This document shows positions 12,656 to 64,000 of a DNA stretch of 64,000 nt, in pieces. The translations under genes were made by a program, and so were the position numbers. The stretch is from the NCBI GenBank assembly GCA_963575745.1, contig CAUYUJ010014333.1, positions 60,001 to 124,000 of the forward strand. The letters are read 5' to 3'. The DNA is from Prorocentrum cordatum. Its lineage: Eukaryota; Sar; Dinophyceae; Prorocentrales; Prorocentraceae. The notes below the pieces were generated by a model. The model was not told the DNA's origin and did not search any database. It saw only the letters and a list, made by a program, of their open reading frames with translations. Numbering within the stretch: the stretch's first letter is position 1; each line of letters starts with the position of its first letter.

Positions 12656-13480
12656 TACAATCCCACTACCTACCGGATTGGATAAACCAAGATGGATTGG
12701 ATTGGCCCGCCGCAAGCACAGAAACAAATGACTTGATGGATTGGTTTGGATGGATTGGATTGGGTGGGATGAAAAACAACATGGGTTGGATACGGCAGGA
12801 TGGGTTGGGCTGGACAAAATGGATTGGATATGATAAGATGGGTTGGATTGGCCGCCGCTGGCGCCGACAAAAATGAATTGATTGGATTGGGTTGGATGGA
12901 TTGGCTTGGATGGGATAAGATGCGGTGGATATGATAAGGCGGGTTGGATTGGAAGAAGTGGATTGGACAAGATAGGGTCGATTGGACTGGCCCGCCGCAG
13001 GCGCAGAAACAAACGAATTGATGGATTGGGTTGGGGGGTTGGATTGGGTGGGATAAACAAGGATCGGGCAAGATGGGTTGGATAAGAAAGGATGGATTTG
13101 ATTGGACAAGATGGGATGGATAATATACTCTGGATTGGGCACGAAAGCCCGCCGCAGGCGCCGACAAAAATGAATTGATGGATTGGGTTGGGTGGGTTGG
13201 ATGGGATGGGATAGGATGGATTGGATAAGATAAGATGGGTTGGATTGTAAGACGTGGACTGGGTAAGATATGATCGATTGGGTTGGCCCGCCGCAGGCGC
13301 TGAAACAAATGAATTAATGGAATGGGTTGGGTGAATTGGATTGGGTGGGATAAGATAAGATGGGACGATATGGTTCGATAAGGTAAAATGAATTGGATTG
13401 GGCCAGTTGGATTGGATGAGATAAGATAAGCTGGATTGGATAAGAAAGACCGCCGTAGGCGCCGAAAACAATTAAATTAA
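12656..13480 (+). repeat. (GGATT)n-based higher-order satellite
   Basis: Dense TGGATTGGATT, GGATAAGATGGG and related 5-bp-derived text is punctuated about every 135-160 bp by CCGCCG(C)AGGCGC..AAACAAA(T)GAATTGATGG. The punctuation is seen near 12706, 12849, 12988, 13147, 13284 and 13449. On the minus strand it yields long Pro/Ser/Ile/Asn frames (up to 280 codons) with no domain; these are satellite shadows. Confidence 0.85.
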
Positions 13481-41531: not shown

Positions 41532-42641
41532 TCAGACATGGCGGTTGTAGGTAAGCGTGGATGTCGAAAAAGAATGGACGCGCTTGACCCTGGCCTTCTT
41601 AGAGAGCTTCTTGCGGCGGAGGACCTGCTTCTCTAGAAGCCGAGCTGCACCAAGTGCACGGTTGACCCCCAGGCAGATCTCTGGCCCCATGACCCCGCCC
41701 GCCGAGATGATGGTACCGAGGGCCTTCTGTTGCGTTGCCAGCTGCACCTTGATAGCAAGTCCGTCCTGTTCTAGGTATGTGATGCCCTCCTTGGCTATCC
41801 GCTGTTTCTCCTGCTTGGCCCCCGCGCCGTAGTGCATGAGGATGGCCTTAGTCTTTTCAGGATGTGGCTTCAGTCCATGCTGGAATGCTGCTGTGCAGAG
41901 CCTGGCAGCTGCCAGAGCTGTCGCGTTGATCAGGTCGTTGGCGCTGGCGGTCGAGTTGTAGTCGGCGAGGTCGTCGACGAAGGACACGTTTCTGAGCGCG
42001 CTTCCTTCGTGAGGGGTTGGTGATAATAGAGGCTCGCTGCGTGCCTCAATCTCGTGTCCGCCTGTCTGCTGGCCGTGGGCCTCTTCCTCTCGAACTGCCT
42101 GGTCGATTGCCCTCAGCATGATGGCGAAGTGTATGTTGAAGGCGAAATCCGAGTATGGTACCCCAGGTCGGGTGCTGGTCCGAGGCGGCTGGTAGTGCCT
42201 TGCGCTCTTGGCTGTCGTCCAGTTGGAGGCGTGGTGATCTGCGATCATGTGGCAGAGCTGCTCGTCGTCGATGCGCTGGTTGTTGTAGGCGGGTTGCTGG
42301 AGTCGTTCCTTTAGAGCTGGTCTGATGAAGTCGGGAATGTCGATCCGTTCGATGAGCTCGTTGAGCTCATCAGCGGTGGTCGGCAATTGCATGCAGAATT
42401 CCCTGATTACGGAGTGGAAGGCCTCCCTGAGGTCCAGGAAGGTGATGCTGCATGATCTTGGTCTCCTCTGGCAGTCGCTGATGAAGGCGAGGCTGGTGTG
42501 AGTGATGAAATCCGTGGCCATCTTGGGTCGGGCGCCGCATTGGGTTGTTTCTAGTAGCTCCGGCAGCAGGCCCTTCACACGGGATCGGAGGAAGGTGCTG
42601 TGCATCTTGCCGATGGTGTTGTTGAGCAGGATGCCGCGGTA
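41532..42641 (-). pseudogene. LINE-2 reverse transcriptase
   Basis: From the TAA onward the frame reads ILLNNTIGKMHSTFLRSRV (RT fingers), TQCGARP, motif A TFLDLREAFHSV (about 42413-42448), motif B TRPGVPYSDFAFN, motif C VSFVDDLADY (41959-41988, both Asp present) and motif D GLKPHPEKTKAIL. The final thumb-like text ends YNRHV. The stop at 41532-41534 results from a missing base: one frame over, the text continues as NNLTQKDLKHISAKYMGP. All polymerase residues I would look for are present, so this copy was inactivated recently. It copies element RNA at the nick made by the endonuclease. Confidence 0.85.
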
Positions 42642-43968
42642 TTATTTCTGGAGCTCCATGGCACCCTGCCCCTTCTGGAAATGCGTAGAGTACCCTCCCT
42701 TGGCGGCGATGGGCTCGGTGCTCTCGAAGTGGGTCTTGACTAGGACGGGGTGGAGCAGGCGAGCCACCCCTTCAGGGCTGGCTCTGGACATGTCGTCGGT
42801 GAGCTGGTCAGGGCCTCCTCGGCGGCCTCGCTTGGCGGCGGCGAGCTGGCTGGTCAGCTGGTGCTTGGGTATTATGGTTTGGATCTTTGGTCCTGGTCCT
42901 GCGTGGCGGGTCCTCTTGTTGTAGTCGGCTGCTACCCCGTCTGCATCCGTGGCAATAGCTTGCTCGACTTTGCCGTGGAAGGCTAGGGCGTGGTCGGCGA
43001 TCTCGCTCTTCTTGGTGAGGGGCTCCCCGTCGTCGTTGGTGCGGATGATGGGCGTCGGCGGCTTCTTTGACTTTCTTCCTCCGAAGGCCAGTAGTCGCTT
43101 GGCGTACAGGGCCTCCAAACGGGGGGCGTGGTCGCCGATCGCTGCACCCATCTCGCCGGCGGTTCTCTCAGGGAAGTCGTCGCGGTCTGTCGTGATCCTC
43201 TTCTGTAGGGTCGACTTAGACGTCCTGAGGAATAGGAGAAGGGCGTCAAAGTAGTGCTGGGCGCTGCGCGCGGTGTTGGCATCGTCGGGTTCCACGACGT
43301 GGGGCGCTAGGCTGGGAGTGCTGAGTATGATAGAGGCCACCACAAGTTTGACGTAGTCGCTGAGATCGGCCAGGGCACTCGCATCTGAGGGGTCGGGCAG
43401 GAGGGCTTCCCTCGCGATGATCTTTGCCGTGTAGCGTAGCCTCTTGTCACCGAAGTGGCTGGCAATCCCGTTTTTCTTGGCGATCCGCGTCGTCTTGAGT
43501 ACCGAGCGGCGAACTCGCAGAAGAGCAAAGGACCGCCTGGTGAGGTAGGGCTTGTGCGGGGTGCGGCTGTTGGAGCGGAAGCACTCGTAAGCGGCCTCCG
43601 TGATCTTCTCAGTGACTATGGTGAGGTGCTCGTTGAGGTTGGTGTCCCAGGGCGGGTGTTTGACCTCGTCTAGTTTTTGGCAAAACTTTTTGCGGCACCC
43701 TTCGTCGGCTAGCTTGCTTTCGTCTAACTTCGGGATTCCTTTGGTGACGGACGAGACGATCTGGTAGGCAAGCTGCATCTTGACTGGATAGTGGTCGTCC
43801 TTGGTCTCTGGGTCTTGGCCGCTGTCTATGCCGTAGAGCACGGCGCACTCCTCGATGGAGTCTATGTAGCCCTTGGGGATGATGACGTAGTCGATGCGAT
43901 GAGGGTCCTTGCCCGAGTGCCAGGTATGATGCTCTGGTCCATGGCTGACGAAGGTGTTGGCGGCCGGC
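42642..43968 (-). pseudogene. LINE-2 endonuclease C-terminus and pre-RT linker
   Basis: After the repeat-encoded acidic leader the frame reads NTFVSHGPEHHTWHSG and RIDYVIIPKG, then KDDHYPVKMQL. RIDYVI and DHYPV are the last two catalytic motifs of LINE endonucleases (Asp-His pair intact); the earlier Asn/Glu motifs are missing. About 350 residues of mainly helical linker follow (KPYLTRRSFALLRVRRSVLK, then acidic/basic helices), ending in the pre-fingers text VLVKTHFESTEPIAAKGGYS. A single TAA (42642-42644) stops the frame. The same frame continues beyond as YRGILLNNTIGKM, the start of RT, so the break is one codon. Confidence 0.75.
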
Positions 43969-43969
43969 T

Positions 43970-44065
43970 CCTCGTCCTCCTCCTCCTCCTCATCATCATC
44001 CTCCTCCTCCTCCTCCCTCCTCCTCCTCCTCCTCCTCCTCCTCCTCCTCCTCCTCCTCCTCCTCC

Positions 44066-44110
<45 letters not shown>

Positions 44111-44112
44111 CC
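43970..44112 (+). repeat. (TCC)n then (CAT)n microsatellite
   Basis: TCCTCC with CATCATCATCC interruptions to about 44063, then 14 or so CAT triplets to 44110. It abuts the truncated 5' end of LINE-2. Confidence 0.97.
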
Positions 44113-45355
44113 CATCCCTCATCCCCCCCCATCATCACCGTCACCCCCCTCCCGCACTGCCTGTCCCTCCCCCCCCCCGCCCCCGCTCCCCCACCATCCT
44201 CCACCCCCTCGTCCTCTCCGTTCGTCCAGGCAAGGCTCCTTGTCCAGCTCGTCCTCCAGCTCCGTCACCTTCGTCTCGATCTCCGCCCCGTGCTCGCTGG
44301 CCTTCTTGCGCGCCTCGGCGCACCCGCCGCGTGCGCGGGGCGCCAGACGGCGTCGTCGTCGTCGTCGTGCCGGTCCGTCCGTCCGCCCGCAGATTCGAAA
44401 GAGGAAAAGGAGAGGGGGGAGAGGAGGAGAGCAAGCGAGGCGAGCTCGCCCCATATCTGACATCCTACCACGCCCACACACATCGCGCTGGGCTCGGAAG
44501 GTCTGAAGGACCACCCCTCGGCGCAACCAACGTGTACGTCCTTCGACCGTACGCTGGTGTCGCCGCCATGGTGCGTGGTGGGGCCCACCTGTTCAAACCT
44601 CCCGCAACCTTCAGCACTATCCTGCACCCGACGGAAGGGTTGCTCGTAAGGGCCCCGCGACCCGCACCCAGCCGCACCCGCACCACGCCCACGTATCCCG
44701 TCCCATTGCGCCGTGTTCTATCCGCTGACGGATCTCATAGTGGACTTGGAACCCAAAAGGGCCCCATCGTGTCAGCCGCAAGCACAGAAGGGGAGGTGCG
44801 TACATCGGAGGAGGAGGTGGCGAATTCGCAGGATGCTGAGCAGGAGAAAGAAGATGAGGAGGATGAGAAAGGAGGATGACGAAGAGGAGCAACAGCAACA
44901 GGAGCAGGAGTGGGAGAAGCGGGAGGAGGGAGGAGCGGGGTGACCAGGGGAAGGCGGGGAAAGGGAAATGAGCGGAACGACAACAATGGGGAAGCACTCA
45001 GACCCACAACAGCAGACCGCGGGGGCAAAAATGCCATGCTAAACAACGTGGCAAAACGCCGATCCTAACATGAGGCTGAAGGTGCCGCAGGAACACCATT
45101 TTGAGACACCGAAACAGTTCCGACTGAAAAAAACGTGTAATCCATCAATCTTGGAAATCCGATGTGAGTAACCATACGTGGAGGGTGGCGGGCAGCTCAC
45201 TGGCCATCTTCGGGGGAAGGGAATAATAGTGTTCATGTGAAGTAATGAAACAATAGCGATGGGAGGATGGGGCTCCTTGACCACGGGCTATCGCGTCAGT
45301 GTGGGTGGGTCAGGACAATGAGGAGCAAGAGGGGATGATAAATCAAGAGAGAGAA
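44113..45355. other. Unique sequence, no gene recognised
   Basis: C-rich and GC-rich to about 44400, then mixed, with a purine tract (GGAGGA, CAACAGCAACAGGAGC) at 44800-44945. A 362-codon plus frame that starts before the microsatellite is Pro/Arg-rich with no domain. From 44990 to 45350 the sequence is AT-richer and lacks a long frame. Confidence 0.4.
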
Positions 45356-45361
45356 GGAGTA

Positions 45362-46515
45362 AGCAGCCCTCGAAAGTGGCGACAAGTTTCGCAGCCCCCC
45401 AAGGATTGCGAGGTCCCGCTCAGATCTGCGTGGTGCCTCACTCCGCTGGACCCGCCACCAGCCTTCGAAAGTAGCTAAGCAACTACGCTGTCGCAGATCA
45501 CAACCCCCCAAGGACAGCGAGCTACCGCTCAGATCCGCGTGGTGCCTCACTCCGCTGGACCCACCAGCAGCCCTCGAAAGTGGCGACAATTTCGCAGATC
45601 GCAGCCACCCAGGGACGGAGAGCTACCGCTGAGATTCGCAGTGCCTCACTCCGGTGGACCCACCAGCAGCCCTCGAAAATGGCGACAATTTCGCAGATCG
45701 CGACCCCCCCAGGGACGGCGAGCTACCGCTCAGATCCGCGGTGCCTCACTCCGCTGGACCCACTAGCACCCCTCGAAAGTGGCGACAATGTCGCGGATCG
45801 CAGCCACCCAGGGACGGAGAGCTACCGCTCAGATCCGCGCGGTGCCTCACTCCGCTGGACCCACCAGCAGCCCTCGAAAATGGCGACAATTTCGCAGATC
45901 GCGACCCCACAAAGACGGCAAGCTACCGCTCAGATCCGCGCGGTGCCTCACTCCGCTGGACCCACCAGCAGCGCTCGAAAGTGGCGACAAGTTTGCAGAT
46001 CGCAGCCCCCCAGGGACGGCGAGCTACCGCCCAGATCCGCGCGGTGCCCCACTCCGCTGGACCCACCAGCAGCCCTCGAAAGTGGCGACAATGTCGCGGA
46101 TCGCAGCCACCCAGGGACGGCGAGCTACCGCTCAGATCCGCGCGATGCCTCACCCCGCTGGACCCACCAGCAACCCTCGAAAATGGCGACAATTTCGCAG
46201 ATCGCAACCCCACAAAGACGGCGAGCTACTGCTCAGAACCGCGGTGCCCCACTCCGCTGGACCCACCAGCACCCCTCGAAGGTGGCAACAATTTAGCAGA
46301 TCGCAGCCACCCAGGGACGGAGAGCTACCGCTGAGATTCGCGCGGTGCCTCACTCCGCTGGACCCTCCAGCAGCCCTCGAAAATGGCGACAATCTCGCAG
46401 ATCGCAGCCCCCCAGGGACGGCGAGCTGCCGCTCAGATCCGCGCGGTGCCTCACTCCGCTGGACCCAGCAGCAGCGCTCGAAAGTGGCGGCAGTTTTGCA
46501 GATCGCAGCCCCCCC
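45362..46515 (+). repeat. 101-bp satellite, about 11 units, open in three frames
   Basis: The landmark TGCC(T/C)CACTCCGCTGGACCC starts at 45434, 45543, 45642, 45742, 45843, 45944, 46045, 46146, 46245, 46347 and 46447, mostly 99-102 bp apart. Unit text: CTCGAAAGTGGCGACAATTT, CGCAGATCGCAGCC.CCCAGG, GACGGCGAGCTACCGCTCAG. As 101 leaves remainder 2 on division by 3, each plus frame cycles through all three readings of the unit. None has a stop, so three overlapping ORFs (238, 226 and 307 codons) encode the same cyclic peptide. Divergence between units is a few per cent, so the array is young. Confidence 0.93.
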
Positions 46516-50239: not shown

Positions 50240-51680
50240 TTGCCCAACGCAACTTCTCGCCCACCACTGACCAATACTCATCTCCTCGCCCTGGCATCTC
50301 CACCCCAACGACCTCTGCTGTTGGGGTTGCCCCCACCAGACAATGCCTCCCCCACCAGAGGTCAGCTGTTGAGACCCCCCGACACGACAAATTCTGGCCC
50401 GAAGCCCACCAGCGCTTCCCTCCTCGCCGTGGCACTCCCACCCCACGACAAGTCAGTTTTTGCCCCCCCCCCCCCCCACACACACACACACACACACACA
50501 CGACAAATTCTGGCCCGCAGCCCACCAACGCCCCCCTCCTCGCTCCGACACCTCCACCCCAGGAGAGCTCAGTTTTTGGGACCCCCCCCACACGACAAAT
50601 TCTAACCCGAAGCCCACCAACGCCCCCCCAACCACCCCCCTCCTCGACCCGGCATCCTCAACCCGGGAAAGCTCTGTTCTTGGGACCCCCCACGCGACAA
50701 TTTCTCGCCCGAAACCTACCAACGCCCCCCTCCCGGCCCCGGCACCCCCACCCCAGGAGAGCTCAGTTCTTGGGACCCCCCACACACTACAATTTCTTGC
50801 CCGAAACTTACAAACGCCCCCCTCCTGGCCCCCGCATCCCCGCCCCAGGAGAGCTCAATTCTTGGCACCCCCCACGCGATAATTCCTCGCCCCGAACCTA
50901 CCAACGCCCCCCTCCTAGCCCCGGCACCCCCACCCCAGGAGAGCTCAGTTCTTGGGACCCCCCACGCGACAATTTCTCCTCCGAAACCTACCAACGCCCC
51001 CCCCCCTGGCCCCGGCACCCCCACCCCAGGAGAGTTCAGTTCTTGTGACCCCCCACACGACGATTTCTCGCCCGAAACCGACCAACGCACCCCTGCTGGC
51101 CCCGGCACCCCCACCCCAGGAGAGCTCAGTTCTTGGGACCCCCCACACGACAATGTCTCGCCCGAAACCTACCAACGCCCCCCTCTGGCCCGAGCACCCC
51201 ACCAGGAGAGCTCAGTTCTTGGGACCCCCCACGACGATTTCTCGCCCGAAACCTACAAACGCTCCCTCTCCTGCCCCGGCACCCCCGCCATTTCTAGCCC
51301 GAAACCTACCAACGCCCCCCTCCTGGCCCCCGCACCCCCACCCCAGGAGAGCTCAGTTATTGGACCCCCCACGACAGTTTCTCGCCCGAAACCCACCAAC
51401 GCCCCCCTCCTGGCCCCGGCACCCCCGCCCCAGGAGAGCTCAGTTCTTGGGCCCCCCACACGCGGCAATTTCTCGCCCGAAACCTACCAGCGCCCCCCTC
51501 CTGGCCCCCGGCACCCCCACCCCAGGAGAGCCCACAGCTCGGGACCCCCCAGAATAATTCATCGCCCGAAACCTACCAGCGCCCTCCTCCTGGCCCCGGC
51601 ACCCCTGCCCCAGGAGAGCTCAGTTCTTGGGACCACCCACACCGCAATTTCCCGCCCAGGCGAGCTCAGTTCTTGGGAAC
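50240..51680 (+). repeat. ~90-bp C-rich satellite, about 13-14 units
   Basis: The landmark AGGAGAGCTCAGTTCTTGGG recurs near 50563, 50669, 50759, 50851, 50941, 51032, 51122, 51208, 51349, 51436, 51529, 51616 and 51661. The commonest spacing is 90 bp, a multiple of three. Units continue ACCCCCCACACGACAATTTC, TCGCCCGAAACCTACCAACG, CCCCCCTCCTGGCCCCGGCAC. The fixed frame gives 30-residue Pro/Thr-rich repeats in a 272-codon ORF on the plus strand and Gly/Arg-rich ones on the minus strand. Short indels break both, so I favour a non-coding satellite. A C-run plus (AC)n sits at 50464-50502. Confidence 0.9.
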
Positions 51681-58481: not shown

Positions 58482-59570
58482 AATGCGCGCGCGCATGCGC
58501 GCGTGCGCGGGTGCGCGCGCGACCGCGGGTGCACGCGCGTGCGCGCGTGTCTGTCTGTCTGTCTGTCTGCCTGTCTGTCTGTTTGTCGGTCTGTCTGCCT
58601 GTCTGTCGATACGTATGTCTGTCTGTGTGTCTGTCTGTCCGTCGTCTGTCTGTCTGCCTATATGTCGGTATGTCTGTCTGTCTGTCTGTGTGCGTCGTGC
58701 TGTGTCGCAATGTGTTGTGCCGTTTCGTGATGTGTGTGTTGTGTGGTTTGTGCGTGATGTGTGTGATGTGTCTTGGGTGTGTAGTGTGTGAATGATGTGT
58801 TGTGTGTGTGTGTTGTGTTGTGTGTGTTGTGTGTTGTGTTGTGTGAGCATGTTGTGTCATGTGCGTTGTGTGCGTTGTGTGCGTTGTGCTTTGGGGTGCG
58901 CTGTGTGTGTGTGTTGCGTGTTGCGTGTTGTGTGTGATGTGTTTGTTGTGTGTTGTGTTGTGCGTTGTGTGGTGCGTGTTGCGTGTTGTGTGTTGTGTTG
59001 CGTGTTGTGTTGTATGTTGTACGTTGTGTGGTGCGCTGGGTGTTGTGTGATGTGTGGTGTGTCTTATATGTTAAGTGTTGTGTGGTGTGTTGTGCGCTGT
59101 GGATTGTGCGTCGTGTGTTGTCTGTTGTGTGGTGAATGCTGATTGATGTATGTTGTGCGGTGTGTGTTGTGTGCTGCCAGTTGCGTATTATGTGGTGAGT
59201 TGTGTGTTGTGTGTTGTACGTTGCGCGCTGTGTGTGCGTATGTGCGTTGCATGTTGTGCGTTGTGCGGTGTCTGCTGTGTGCTGTGTGTGGTGAATTGAA
59301 TGTGGTGTGTGGTGTGTCTGTGTGCCTGTGCGTCCGTGTCAGAGTGTCTGTGTGTCTGCGTGTCTGTGTGTGTGTGCGTGCGTGCATGCGTGCGTGCGTG
59401 TGTGTGTGTGTGCGTGTGTGTGTGTGTGTGTGTGTGCGTGTGTTTGTGCGTTTGTGTTTATGTGTGTGTGTGTTTGTGTATGAACCTCGTCTGCGTATGT
59501 CTGTGTCCGTGTCCGTGTCTGTGTCTGTCTGTGCCTGTGTGTCCGTGTCTGTGTCGTTTTGCCGCGCCCC
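58482..59570 (+). repeat. (CG/TG)n, (TCTG)n and (TGTG)n compound microsatellite
   Basis: GCGCGCGCATGCGCGCGTGCG to 58545, (TCTG)n to about 58690, then decayed GTGTTGTGTGTTGTGCG 5-8-bp units to 59290 and (TG)n/(TGCG)n to 59550. Frames on both strands (Val/Cys-rich and His/Thr-rich) are shadows. Confidence 0.95.
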
Positions 59571-59873
59571 CACCTGGGGGACGCGCAGCCATCAACTAGT
59601 GGCCCAGGCACTGATTGCATCGCACCCTTGACCCACTGGACTCGTTCTGGCACTCGTACTGTGCCCCGCCGCCGCTGGAACCCCAGCGCAGCAGCCGCAG
59701 CGGACCCTGCAGGCGTGTGCGGCTGAGCGGCCCTCGCTCCTCCTCCTCCTCCTTCGGCCGCCCTCCCTGCCTCCTTGTTTCCCTCTTTCTTGCGGCAAAA
59801 CTCGCTACAACAATGTCCCCGTTTAGTTAGCTCTCCCGCCAGCGCAATTACTCTGCCTAGCCCCCGACGTTAA

Positions 59874-60462
59874 AAGTGTGTCTGTGTATGTGTCTGTGTC
59901 TGCGTGTGCGTGTGCGTGTGCGTGTGCGCGTGCGCGTGCGCGTGCGCGTGCGCGTGCACGTGCGCGTGCGCGTGCGCATGCGCGTGTGCGTGTGCGTGTG
60001 CGTGTGCGTGTGCGTGTGCGTGTGCGTGTGCGTGTGCGTAGGCGTAGGCGTAGGCGTATGCGTAGGCGTGGGGGTGTGCGTGTGCGTGTGCGTGTGCGTG
60101 GGAGTGGGCGTGGGCGTGGGCGTAGGCGTAGGCGTGGGCGTAGGCGTAGGCGTAGGCGTGGGCGTGGGCGTGGGCGTGGGCGTGGGCGTGCGCGCGTGCG
60201 CGTGCGCGTGCGTGGGCGCGTGCGCGTGCGCGTGCGCGTGCGCGTGCGCGTGCGCGTGCGCGTGCGCGTGCGCGTGCGCCGCGTGCGCCGCGTGCGCGTG
60301 CGCCGCGTGCGCGTGCGCGTGCGCGTGCGCGTGCGCGTGCGCGTGCGCGTGCGTGTGCGTGTGCGTGTGCGTGTGCGTGTGCGTGTGCGTGTGCGTGTGC
60401 GTGTGCGTGTGCGTGTGCGTGGGCGTGTGCGTGTGCGTGTGCGCTGTGATTCTGTGTGTCTG
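59874..60462 (+). repeat. (GTGCGT/GTGCGC)n hexanucleotide array, ~590 bp
   Basis: Almost unbroken alternating purine-pyrimidine text: GCGTGTGCGTGTGC, then GCGTAGGCGTAGGCGT and GGGCGTGGGCGTGG in the middle, GCGCGTGCGCGTGC at 60190-60340, and GTGTGCGTGTGC to the end. Six frames stay open for 200-plus codons (Val-Cys, Arg-Val, His-Ala and similar dipeptides). A strong Z-DNA candidate. The 59570-59873 interval before it is unique with no gene. Confidence 0.97.
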
Positions 60463-60652
60463 TGTGTGCGCTGTGATTTCCAACGTTTCGGATCAAGACC
60501 AGCTCACCGACCCCGTCCCCGGGAGGTCTGGACCAAGCGGTTCCCGACTCCCGCACCGACCAGCACATCTTTACTTTAATTTCTGAGTCCTCGCTCTGTA
60601 CGTTTTGGATTCACTTGAATCTCCGGGGTGCGAGAGGGCCTGGACTTTCTAA

Positions 60653-63600
60653 AGCGGTTTGAGAAGTCCAGCTTGCACCCGTGCAGGGCTTGGGGGGCAG
60701 TGCATAGCAGCAGCATGTGCATCCTTAGTGCTTTCTTCGGTTCAGGATTGGTTTAGGCCGGTGCTTAAAGCCTTTCGCTGCACACTTAAGTGGGTCAATC
60801 CTGAGATCTTGGCCGGGCAATGTATTGAAAACACCATCGTCATACATTTCCTATCCTCTTCATGTCAGTGTTACGGTGGAAATATGGACTTGGCCGAATC
60901 TGCCGACGCACCACCTCCACCATTTACATACCAATCATCGTGTTCTTCTCTGGTTTCGTGGCTTCGGTGGGGGCAAGCAGCGCATTGCTCGAACGTTCTG
61001 ACATGCAGCTCCAGGGGTATCTTGAACGTCGTGACCCTCTTGTGTATGCAGATACACACATTTGTCTCGAGCCTCTCCAAGCACGTTCGTACAATTGGGG
61101 CCCTCTCTCGACGGCTTCAGCTTCCTGTTCAACTTTTGACAGAGCCTGCTATGCAGTGCCCTGGCGAACTACGAGACATATGGCATAGTATATTATGGAA
61201 CTTGCTCGCACATACGCCATCGCACGCCTTTCTCACTTCGCTTCAACGCCTTCAACGTGAACTTCTAGATATACAGCATACACACGGTCGCCTGCACACG
61301 CCGCACGCATACTTGGTACTAGCATCACTTACAATGGGCGCCACTCTACTTAAAATTCGCTGTGCTGCTCTTGGGGGAAGAAAGCAAACCTGGAAGGCCA
61401 AACGTTTGGTGTGCTCCTTTCCGCCTGAAGTTCAACGAACACTGTTTCGTCCGTCGTTGGCCGGCTTCCTGGATACGCTCGCCATGGTGCAACTCGTCCG
61501 CCTACAGATGCACGCAGTGTTTGGCGATCGTACTTCGTCGTCGTATGGATATGTCTACCAGCTTGGTTTTAGGGCACGATACATTGGACAGTGCAGGGCG
61601 TATCGGTCCAGGCGTGCGCACACAGGTTTTGTATACAGACTCCGCGAGCATTGGCGAGACTGGCAACTTACGTCAAAAAAGGAACTCAAAGCACGCGCAG
61701 GTCGTTATAACCTCATGCTTCGTATGGATGGTTCCGAGTTTTATGCTATGGTAGTGTCATCTGCGTCCCAGGATCAATTACTCCCTTTGGAAGCTGGTCT
61801 TATTGATATGTGTCGTCCGGAGGCTAACTTCCAGGCTACCAAACCGACATTGCCTCGCCCAGCTTGCGCACAGCCCCGTCCCCGACCCCGCCGCCGACGC
61901 AACCACAGGTACGCATATTCTGCTACGAAAACACGGGATCTTATCATGACGTCAGGGGAGGATTGGCACGAACATTATCTTCGTACACTTATAAGTAAGT
62001 ACACTAGTCACCAAGTTGTTGTTCAACGTCGCCTTGAACTACAAAAGCTTTTGCGCCAACCTCTTCTACATGTACACGCGCATGTTTCACAGCATATACC
62101 TACACAAGGGCCTATCGACATACATGCACCGGGCTATCTCCTGCTTTTGCTTACGCATGCAATGTCCCGTCCGGGAGATGTGTCCTGGCTCCGTGCGTGC
62201 CATCGTCGTGGTCGTCCTGATGATTTCCTTTATGTTGCTTGGCTGAGCACTTCCGTGATTCCATTCTTCCACGCTCGTGCCAAAGTCCGTGCACAACTCG
62301 TACATGTTCTTGCGTGGAAGGGGGAGTGCATTCCGTCGCTGCAGTACGTCAAAGCACCCAGCCCAGCATGGAAACACGCGCTCCAGCACTGGTTTTCCAC
62401 AGTCGCCCAGCAACAATCGCAGCTTCGGCCTCATTGGGTTCACTTGGCTAGGAAAAATGTCCGCATTACTCTGATGCACCCGGAACCCCTCAAACGCAGG
62501 CTGCAGAATGTGTCCAGTATACTACGGGATGTTAGTTTGTTCGACCTCGCCAAAGTACAACGTAAGGGTCTGGATAGAGCGTTCCGGGGGGCAGATTTGG
62601 GGCGTCTCCCTCTAAATGGCCGCACTCCTAGTCTACCTGACCCTGCAGCGTGTCGTCGTCAAGTTTTTGTCCAGTGTGGTCAATGGCTTCGCCGTCACCG
62701 TTTACCTGGTGAACTTGCTGACCTCCTGCAGATACCACCTGCGTCTTCTCAGAGTATGCAATACGCCCCCAGGCCGTTCCAGGAGCCCACCCAGGACGTC
62801 ATCTCTGAGCTCGCTGGCATGAGGGGGAAAATCGCTATTACGGTTGAGGACAAGGACCCCAATACACTATGGGTGCAGCGTCCGTTTCTTCTACTACTCC
62901 GCTGGCTTTTTCTCCTCTCTCGTGCATCTCACAGATGGCGCGTGTGTGTCGCTCCTCGGGCCTCGGTGGTTCAATGGTACAGGTTTGTCATGGATTTTTC
63001 AATTCCCAAGTCGCTATTCCAGGGCCAGTCCAGGCTGTCTGCTGCTAACCTGCCATACTGCTACCCCACGGTCAAAGCGAAGTGCTGGGGACACGATGGC
63101 GAGTACAAGTGTTCACAACCTTCACACAGCTGCTTCAGAAACATATGTTCGTTCGTGCACTTCCCAGCCCGCCGTATCTACCGGATGATGGGACGCGCCA
63201 TTGCTCACTGTGTCAAGTTTGCCACCCCGGGTTGGACAGTTGTCAATCTGGATTTGGCATTCGACGTACTTCGCGAACGTGCTGCCCTACTCCAGCCACC
63301 CTCGCTCTCCGCGTCAGGCAGTCCAGTGTGCTCTCAGTGCGGACGCCACATGTCTTGCCCCAGTCTGCTCGTGGCAGATGCTGGGCAAGCGTACGAGGAC
63401 CTCGACCTCGATGCTGTCCACGATGCTGTTGAAATATTGTTTCATGACGTATCCCGGTGTACCAGTTCCAAAACGATTACCGTCACAGTACACCCAGCGT
63501 CGGTCCATGTCCACTGGGGTGGAGCTATTGAGTCTTCACATCGGCAGTCCATGGTTTTCATTGTCGGTTCCCTTCGGCGTGCTGTGCTGGGTTTTCTTGC

Positions 63601-64000
63601 CATGCGTTTTTTTTTGTTCGTCGGCGATTTCTTCCTTGAGCAAATACGAGGAATCCCAATCGGAGGGCCTATATCTGGCTGCGTATTAGAGGTCGTCTTG
63701 AGTCGAAAGGAGCACGACTATGACAAAGCACATCCCTCCCGAAAGCTGAATCCCACCAGCCCTTTGGGCGTGAGTGGTTTAGCGAGCTTTCTCTGTCCTC
63801 AACCCCCCAACCCCCCTTCTTCCCCTTCGGGGAGGGGTTTACCCCTCCCCCTCCCCCCTCCCCCTGGGCCTGGAGAGGGCGGGCCGAATGTAACCACTCG
63901 GGGTCTTTTTCAACTCCTGGGAGGGCCAAAAAACGACGACCCTCACAAGGATTCTGGCCCCCAGGGGGGGGGGGGACCGTTTGGCGCCTCTACTCCTCTT
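60653..64000 (+). CDS. GIY-YIG endonuclease-reverse transcriptase protein (Penelope-like, N-terminal nuclease), 3' partial
   Basis: A single plus frame is open from just after a TAA (60650-60652) to the window edge, 1,116 codons without a stop. The first likely Met is at 60884. Domains by residue from that Met: basic/hydrophobic leader 1-215, GIY-YIG nuclease 220-320, basic linker with PRPRPRRRR about 330-340, helical linker to 640, RT 645-945. RT landmarks are VEDKDPN (655 on), LPYCYPTVKAKCW (723 on), motif A ADAGQAY (Asp 832) and motif B GIPIGGPIS (923 on). Penelope-like retroelements pair such an RT with GIY-YIG, normally C-terminal; permuted N-terminal forms are known in the Chlamys group. 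Composition is more balanced than the GC-rich surroundings. After about 63750 the frame runs into C- and G-rich text with no motif C, so coding probably ends or is interrupted there. It could also be a domesticated RT gene. Confidence 0.85.
61535..61840 (+). other. GIY-YIG nuclease domain within the RT protein
   Basis: SSYGYVYQLG (GIY strand, Gly codon 61547) is followed nine residues later by RYIGQ (YIG strand, Tyr codon 61580), then YRLREHWRDW carrying the conserved Arg, GRYNLMLRMDG, FYAMVV, and LPLEAGLIDM with the metal-binding Glu (codon 61790). PEANFQ supplies the Asn (codon 61826). All five GIY-YIG landmarks are present in order and at normal spacing, so the nuclease should be active. 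The fold makes single-strand nicks or double-strand breaks and would prime reverse transcription at the target. Confidence 0.85.
62810..63760 (+). other. Reverse transcriptase domain (motifs 1 to B)
   Basis: RT1-like KIAITVEDKDPNTLWV (the ADK position of Penelope-like RTs), fingers LPYCYPTVKAKCW, helix RRIYRMMGRAIAHCVKF and strand WTVVNLDLAFDVLRE. A C-x2-C-x5-C cluster CSQCGRHMSC (from 63329) stands just before motif A VADAGQAYEDLD, then FFLFVGDFFLEQIRGIPIGG PISG (63608-63679, broken here only for length). The Y/F-x-D-D motif C, expected 40-70 residues later, is not found in this frame; the Cys cluster inside the palm region is unusual. Confidence 0.8.

Follow-up and report, generated by a model that had tools for sequence, protein, structure and literature searches.

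Penelope-like elements (PLEs) join a GIY-YIG nuclease to a telomerase-like reverse transcriptase (RT), as stated in the excerpted text of two sources (PMC11167929, PMC3846280). In canonical PLEs the nuclease is located at the C-terminus, and a lizard PLE has been described that cuts DNA and begins copying internally on its RNA (PMC11167929, in excerpt). An intron within a PLE frame has also been reported (PMC3846280, in excerpt), and a common ancestor for the RTs of PLEs and telomerase (TERT) is stated in an excerpt of a further paper (PMC5718144). The window, by which is meant the whole 64,000-nucleotide stretch of DNA analyzed here, contains one open frame that is shared by nuclease-like motifs and RT motifs. 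In this respect, and in that it is probably interrupted by an intron, it resembles the canonical Penelope/Poseidon elements as excerpted (PMC11167929, PMC3846280). In contrast, the GIY-YIG of the canonical elements follows the RT in the excerpted text (PMC11167929), while the GIY-YIG-like domain of the window frame precedes it.

No dinoflagellate element with a nuclease-first RT design was present among the matches listed from the titles and abstract openings of the open-licence literature. The nuclease does precede the RT in Chlamys-type PLEs; members of this group with an N-terminal GIY-YIG were reportedly described by Craig et al. in 2021. The likeness to them is one of domain order.

The reading developed here, to which about even chances are given, is that the frame represents one exon of a divergent PLE-like protist retroelement, or of a recent copy of one, with a GIY-YIG-like nuclease situated before the RT. 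By analogy with PLEs, the predicted nuclease would nick chromosomal DNA, and the RT would then prime on the exposed 3' end and copy the RNA of the element into the cut. The nuclease may be active, the gene may be mobile and the RT may belong to the Penelope/telomerase branch. Rather unlikely is the wider reading of an undescribed class of eukaryotic retroelement in marine protists, with a GIY-YIG placed before an RT that is missed by the standard profile and that branches near the Penelope/telomerase root; if true, it would provide a missing form linking telomerase and the nuclease-bearing retroelements. Should both the front nuclease and the Penelope/telomerase affinity be true, a deep protist branch would be added to the class of elements that has a common ancestor with telomerase, and it would become testable in which order the nuclease was gained and rearranged.

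The open frame and its coding limits

The initial annotation described a frame with no stop from its first codon to the edge of the window, and this run was confirmed on the forward strand (Table 1). From the base composition of the region, the chance of 1116 open codons is approximately 8e-19. Both this value and the existence of seven protein relatives argue against a chance open frame, which is hardly conceivable even though the two ends of the frame look non-coding. Over 62384–63724 a chance frame is refuted by homology to one of the relatives, P0002.

Coding over the entire frame is not borne out. The segment 60653–61012 is without codon periodicity or a consistent codon preference, and only ~61.0–63.77 kb of the frame is likely to be coding. 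The left edge of the coding stretch in Table 1 carries an uncertainty of about ±100 bases, and the right edge was set at the donor-like site GTGAGT. Codon-position GC turns uneven from the 61201 bin onward. A codon-preference score, trained on 61500–63724 with the tested piece excluded, was positive in the large frame at 61013–61462 (a segment outside the training stretch), at 61553–62992 and at 63263–63532. The preference is thereby positive for the most part both before and after the join between the nuclease-like and RT parts, with dips: it is flat at 61373–61642, where the GIY-YIG-like domain starts, negative at 62993–63262, and led by a competing frame at 63533–63802. At 60923–61102 the coding score falls to another frame in place of the large one. 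A short forward-strand frame at 60862–61188, which overlaps the 5' end of the large frame, has a coding-like score in the same interval; this frame could be an exon upstream of the large one or lie across a frameshift from it.

At the 3' side, pairwise homology to P0002 stops at residue 1024 (63724) and the alignment with P0003 stops at ~63736 (about residue 1028). Since the homology ends here and is followed by the donor-like GTGAGT, the exon would end at 63770. RT motif C (xxDD) was not found in the part of the frame that lies within the window and would be situated in an exon beyond it. The residue ranges initially suggested for the two domains, 215–325 and 640–950, do not fit the numbering of the frame, in which the GIY-YIG-like domain comprises residues 299–392 and the RT homology residues 578–1024.

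Table 1. Positions of the open frame, its candidate domains and sites, and the LINE remnant within the window
Feature	Position	Strand	Basis or remark
Near-intact LINE remnant	41532–44204	-	520-aa and 357-aa frames with one in-frame stop between them
Open frame, 1116 codons	60653–64000	+	Stop-free; continues past the right window edge
Candidate acceptor-like site, pyrimidine-rich	60847–60868	+	One of three in 60601–62000
Approximate coding stretch, probably one exon	61013–63769	+	Codon-position GC, codon preference, pairwise homology
Predicted GIY-YIG-like nuclease domain, residues 299–392 (GYVY..RYIG..RLREH..LEAGLI..EAN)	61547–61828	+	Motif signature
Divergent RT-family region, residues 578–1024	62384–63724	+	Pairwise alignment to P0002
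VEDKDP block	62843–62860	+	EDKDP kept in 8/8 family rows
YPTVKAKC...HSCFRNIC, probably finger motifs 1/2	63062–63148	+	Family alignment
CxxC (CSQC) directly 5' of motif A	63329–63340	+	Present in 6/6 covering rows (of 8)
RT motif A, ADAGQAYE, with presumed catalytic Asp	63374–63397	+	Family alignment
RT motif B, GIPIGGP	63650–63670	+	Motif position and profile-profile register
Donor-like GTGAGT	63770–63775	+	Sequence site, 3' of homology end

A probable, divergent reverse transcriptase family

The RT motifs quoted in the initial annotation, VEDKDP, YPTVK (63062–63076), ADAGQAYE and GIPIGGP, are all present. A search with residues 280–1050, in which the best 8000 word-sharing candidates were scored, identified a single relative, P0002 (822 aa, E = 1e-53), with 31% identity over residues 578–1024 of the window frame. 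When both RT cores served as the query, six further relatives were found (P0003–P0008, E = 6e-107 to 3e-19); of these, P0003 shares 53% identity with the window frame. All seven are metagenomic and lie on short ENA contigs; they are 28–53% identical to the window row and keep the same motifs where these are covered. The RT-family region is stretched to the left by P0005 (to ~residue 542) and to the right by P0003 (to ~residue 1028). The family profile, made over residues 538–1030, includes the window row and is not independent support. With respect to motif order, A and B are found within the window, spaced by 89–91 residues in the family, and P0002 carries A, B and C (DAGQAYE at 370, GLPIGG at 459 and IADD at 509) as well as YLDF. 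Pattern searches for further relatives returned 114 and 63 matching stretches in viral contigs, none of which was confirmed as a relative, and zero stretches in genome contigs. A tblastn search with P0002 gave chance-level results, in 1 plasmid record and 8 phage records.

The family is likely one of reverse transcriptases. The RT assignment of the initial annotation is supported by the family itself, in which P0002 has all three motifs (A, B and C), and by a profile-profile match at B and C. Pfam RVT_1 gave no match at E ≤ 10 in the frame, in the RT fragment or in the eight family rows. The absence of a profile match, named at the outset as grounds for abandoning the claim, is literally the case for Pfam; the RT part nonetheless withstands the more sensitive profile-profile test. 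The family escapes the standard RT profile, and since that profile matched 0 of 8 family rows, automatic annotation would likely miss the family in protist genomes.

DGR RTs from viral contigs (63 of 67 loci, then those of >200 aa) made up the reference alignment for the profile-profile test, together with BPP-1 Brt and three stretches of group II RTs. The seven-row family was aligned to it by hhalign over 69 columns (probability 55.5, score 42.8). At motif B, GLPIGGPLS of the family is paired with GIPIGSLTS, and at motif C IADDTIMFS is paired with YMDDIVVLG; motif A is unaligned. The best of 200 column shuffles scored 28.1 (probability 3.7) and the reversed alignment 26.2. Without P0002, the family matched 16 columns at motif B with a score of 33.3, and P0002 alone scored 31.7. 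This test is insensitive, since the reference scored the true LINE RT of the window at a probability of only 1.1. The NCBIfam group II RT model matched P0002 weakly (E = 0.0029, residues 433–560, spanning motifs B and C); the window fragment was unmatched by this model, and P0003–P0007 had zero matches in NCBIfam as a whole. In a single-sequence RT-HMM, which is a weak test, P0002 (3.9 bits) and P0004 (3.8 bits) exceeded the maximum of 3.1 bits reached by 500 shuffles of P0002. The other scores, 0.9 for P0003, 0.4 for the window frame and -0.9 for the LINE, were within or below the shuffles.

Several other weak matches are of unclear meaning: a Zn-ribbon model on one of the eight family rows (E = 0.023), a 16S rRNA methyltransferase model of NCBIfam (E = 0.16), and two PADLOC models, HEC-02B with E = 0.0059 for P0002 and Drt8 with E = 0.0048 for the GIY-YIG fragment. 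PHROGs returned two families of unknown function with weak scores (E = 0.029 and 0.21), and sequence searches of the PDB gave no matches or irrelevant ones.

A possible affinity of the family to PLEs may be considered in terms of its motifs. In PLEs, these follow one another as DKG, PKxHK, RPIvS, DV.SLyT, motif B, YxDD and FLD. The succession EDKDPN..LWV, YPTVKAKC, FRNICSF, ADAGQAYE and GIPIGGP in the family, continued in P0002 by IADD and YLDF, parallels that of PLEs and is treated as a lead, as is the resemblance of DAGQAYE to telomerase motif A. Alternatively, the RT may fall outside the Penelope/telomerase branch, being of group II/DGR type, of DIRS type or from a separate eukaryotic branch, with a nuclease that was acquired independently; this is possible, if somewhat unlikely. 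The sole similarity detected is to bacterial RT profiles, namely the group II model (E = 0.0029) and the DGR/group II alignment in which motifs B and C are in register, and GIPIGG is like the GIPIGS of DGR motif B. This comparison is one-sided because the reference RTs hold no eukaryotic PLE or TERT. On the other hand, motif A is unaligned to the group II and DGR RTs, the family has a nuclease-like domain in front, and the A–B spacing of BPP-1 Brt is ~40 (a hand count) as opposed to 89–91 residues, a distance that would suit PLE and TERT. The PLE order of DK(G), PKxHK, RPI, A, B, C and FLD is also matched in outline. With respect to the DIRS type, the RTs of Symbiodinium DIRS elements are reported to align poorly with Pfam in the excerpted text of PMC5890265.

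A domesticated host gene derived from an element of this kind is improbable. It would be consistent with a long intact frame that adjoins simple repeats and with motifs that are kept in relatives of 28–53% identity where covered. Against it, if the host is a dinoflagellate, an excerpt of a review describes these organisms as having large RT families (PMC11453091).

The domain in front of the reverse transcriptase

An N-terminal GIY-YIG-like nuclease domain is probable, judging by its sequence. The motifs that had been quoted for it are present at 61547–61558 (GYVY), 61577–61588 (RYIG), 61637–61651 (RLREH), 61787–61804 (LEAGLI) and 61820–61831 (EANF), so that the Tyr strand, YIG, Arg, Glu and Asn occur in the expected order and with plausible spacing. 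Signatures of three stringencies were applied. The medium signature was found in 11 of 5000 shuffles and in 1 of 475 window frames, and the loose signature in 236 of 5000 shuffles; their sensitivities were 3/9 and 4/9 known domains, respectively. The strict signature was discounted as evidence, since it was fitted to the frame and found 0/9 known domains.

While the proposed GIY-YIG stands at the level of motifs, Pfam, NCBIfam, PHROGs, the PDB, hhalign and pairwise comparison were without a significant match. The GIY-YIG profile of Pfam had no match in the frame at E ≤ 10. The hhalign comparison gave a probability of 1.6 and is underpowered, as the true members SegG, UvrC and YhbQ score only 2–7. 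In nine pairwise tests the best was I-TevII, whose score was equalled by 30 of 2000 shuffles; true members often miss each other in such tests. Among 1539 word-sharing, length-limited candidates, there were 0 homologues of residues 215–560. The alignments available for scanning were limited in kind: the I-TevII search yielded a single locus in viral contigs and 66 phage records forming a narrow group, unfit for a broad profile; the YhbQ search yielded 80 of 193 loci, enterobacterial by titles among the matches listed, and was not used further. A T4 GIY-YIG alignment was too variable for scanning and a nine-domain alignment was substituted, in which UvrC is visibly misaligned.

From these results, a tentative alternative is that the RT is real and the front domain is not a GIY-YIG, the motifs being a chance or convergent resemblance within an N-terminal part that is another, family-specific domain. 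The non-significant profile, PDB and pairwise tests point in this direction, as do the absent homologues, the codon score that is flat over the first part of the domain and the frequency of the loose signature in shuffles. In addition, the signature was found in none of six relatives tested. These relatives are metagenomic fragments, however, whose called starts fall after the expected location of the domain. The signature is absent from all of P0002, including the part that follows the RT, and this absence is weak evidence since the signatures find at most 4/9 known domains. The ordered residues, their plausible spacing and the rarity of the medium signature in shuffles and window frames favor a GIY-YIG-like nuclease, and the failure of hhalign and pairwise recognition among true members reduces what the non-significant tests can say against it. 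As a separate observation, residues 700–822 of P0002 form a tail 3' of the RT that is rich in Gly, Lys, Trp and Tyr.

The LINE remnant and repeats of the window

The large frame had been described as the only long intact complex frame in the window. This was not borne out, as a LINE remnant is found on the reverse strand (Table 1). Its 357-aa frame matches RVT_1 with E = 3.7e-5 and 24 bits, under the Pfam cut-off of 29.6. By eye, the 520-aa frame contains the end of an AP-endonuclease-like domain, for which there was no Pfam match, and a trinucleotide repeat is present in the upstream part of the LINE. Like the family, the LINE encodes the RT of a eukaryotic retroelement. The two differ in that the LINE is matched, if below the cut-off, by RVT_1, and its profile similarity to the family is nil. 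An ordinary LINE is not supported as an identity for the large frame, which RVT_1 leaves unmatched and which hhalign compares to the window LINE with a probability of 0.1 (the reference RTs score that LINE at only 1.1).

A second copy of the element was not found within the window, whose edge truncates the element itself. Three loci were identified by a DNA pattern scan for a PLE block, none of which reads as an RT. Rfam listed no hammerhead ribozyme and gave no match at gathering score across the 64 kb. Spliced-leader relics were not found in the window either, which speaks neither for nor against the dinoflagellate host proposed in the initial annotation. With its LINE remnant, long simple repeats and minisatellites, the window looks eukaryotic.

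Just upstream of the gene, at 58731–60448, are long TG-rich/TGCGTG simple-repeat arrays that create artificial long frames on both strands. Minisatellites with units of ~101 and ~90 bases are located at 45362–46514 and 50531–51657, respectively, and a 296-base unit is repeated in tandem in 2.3 copies at 12691–13353.
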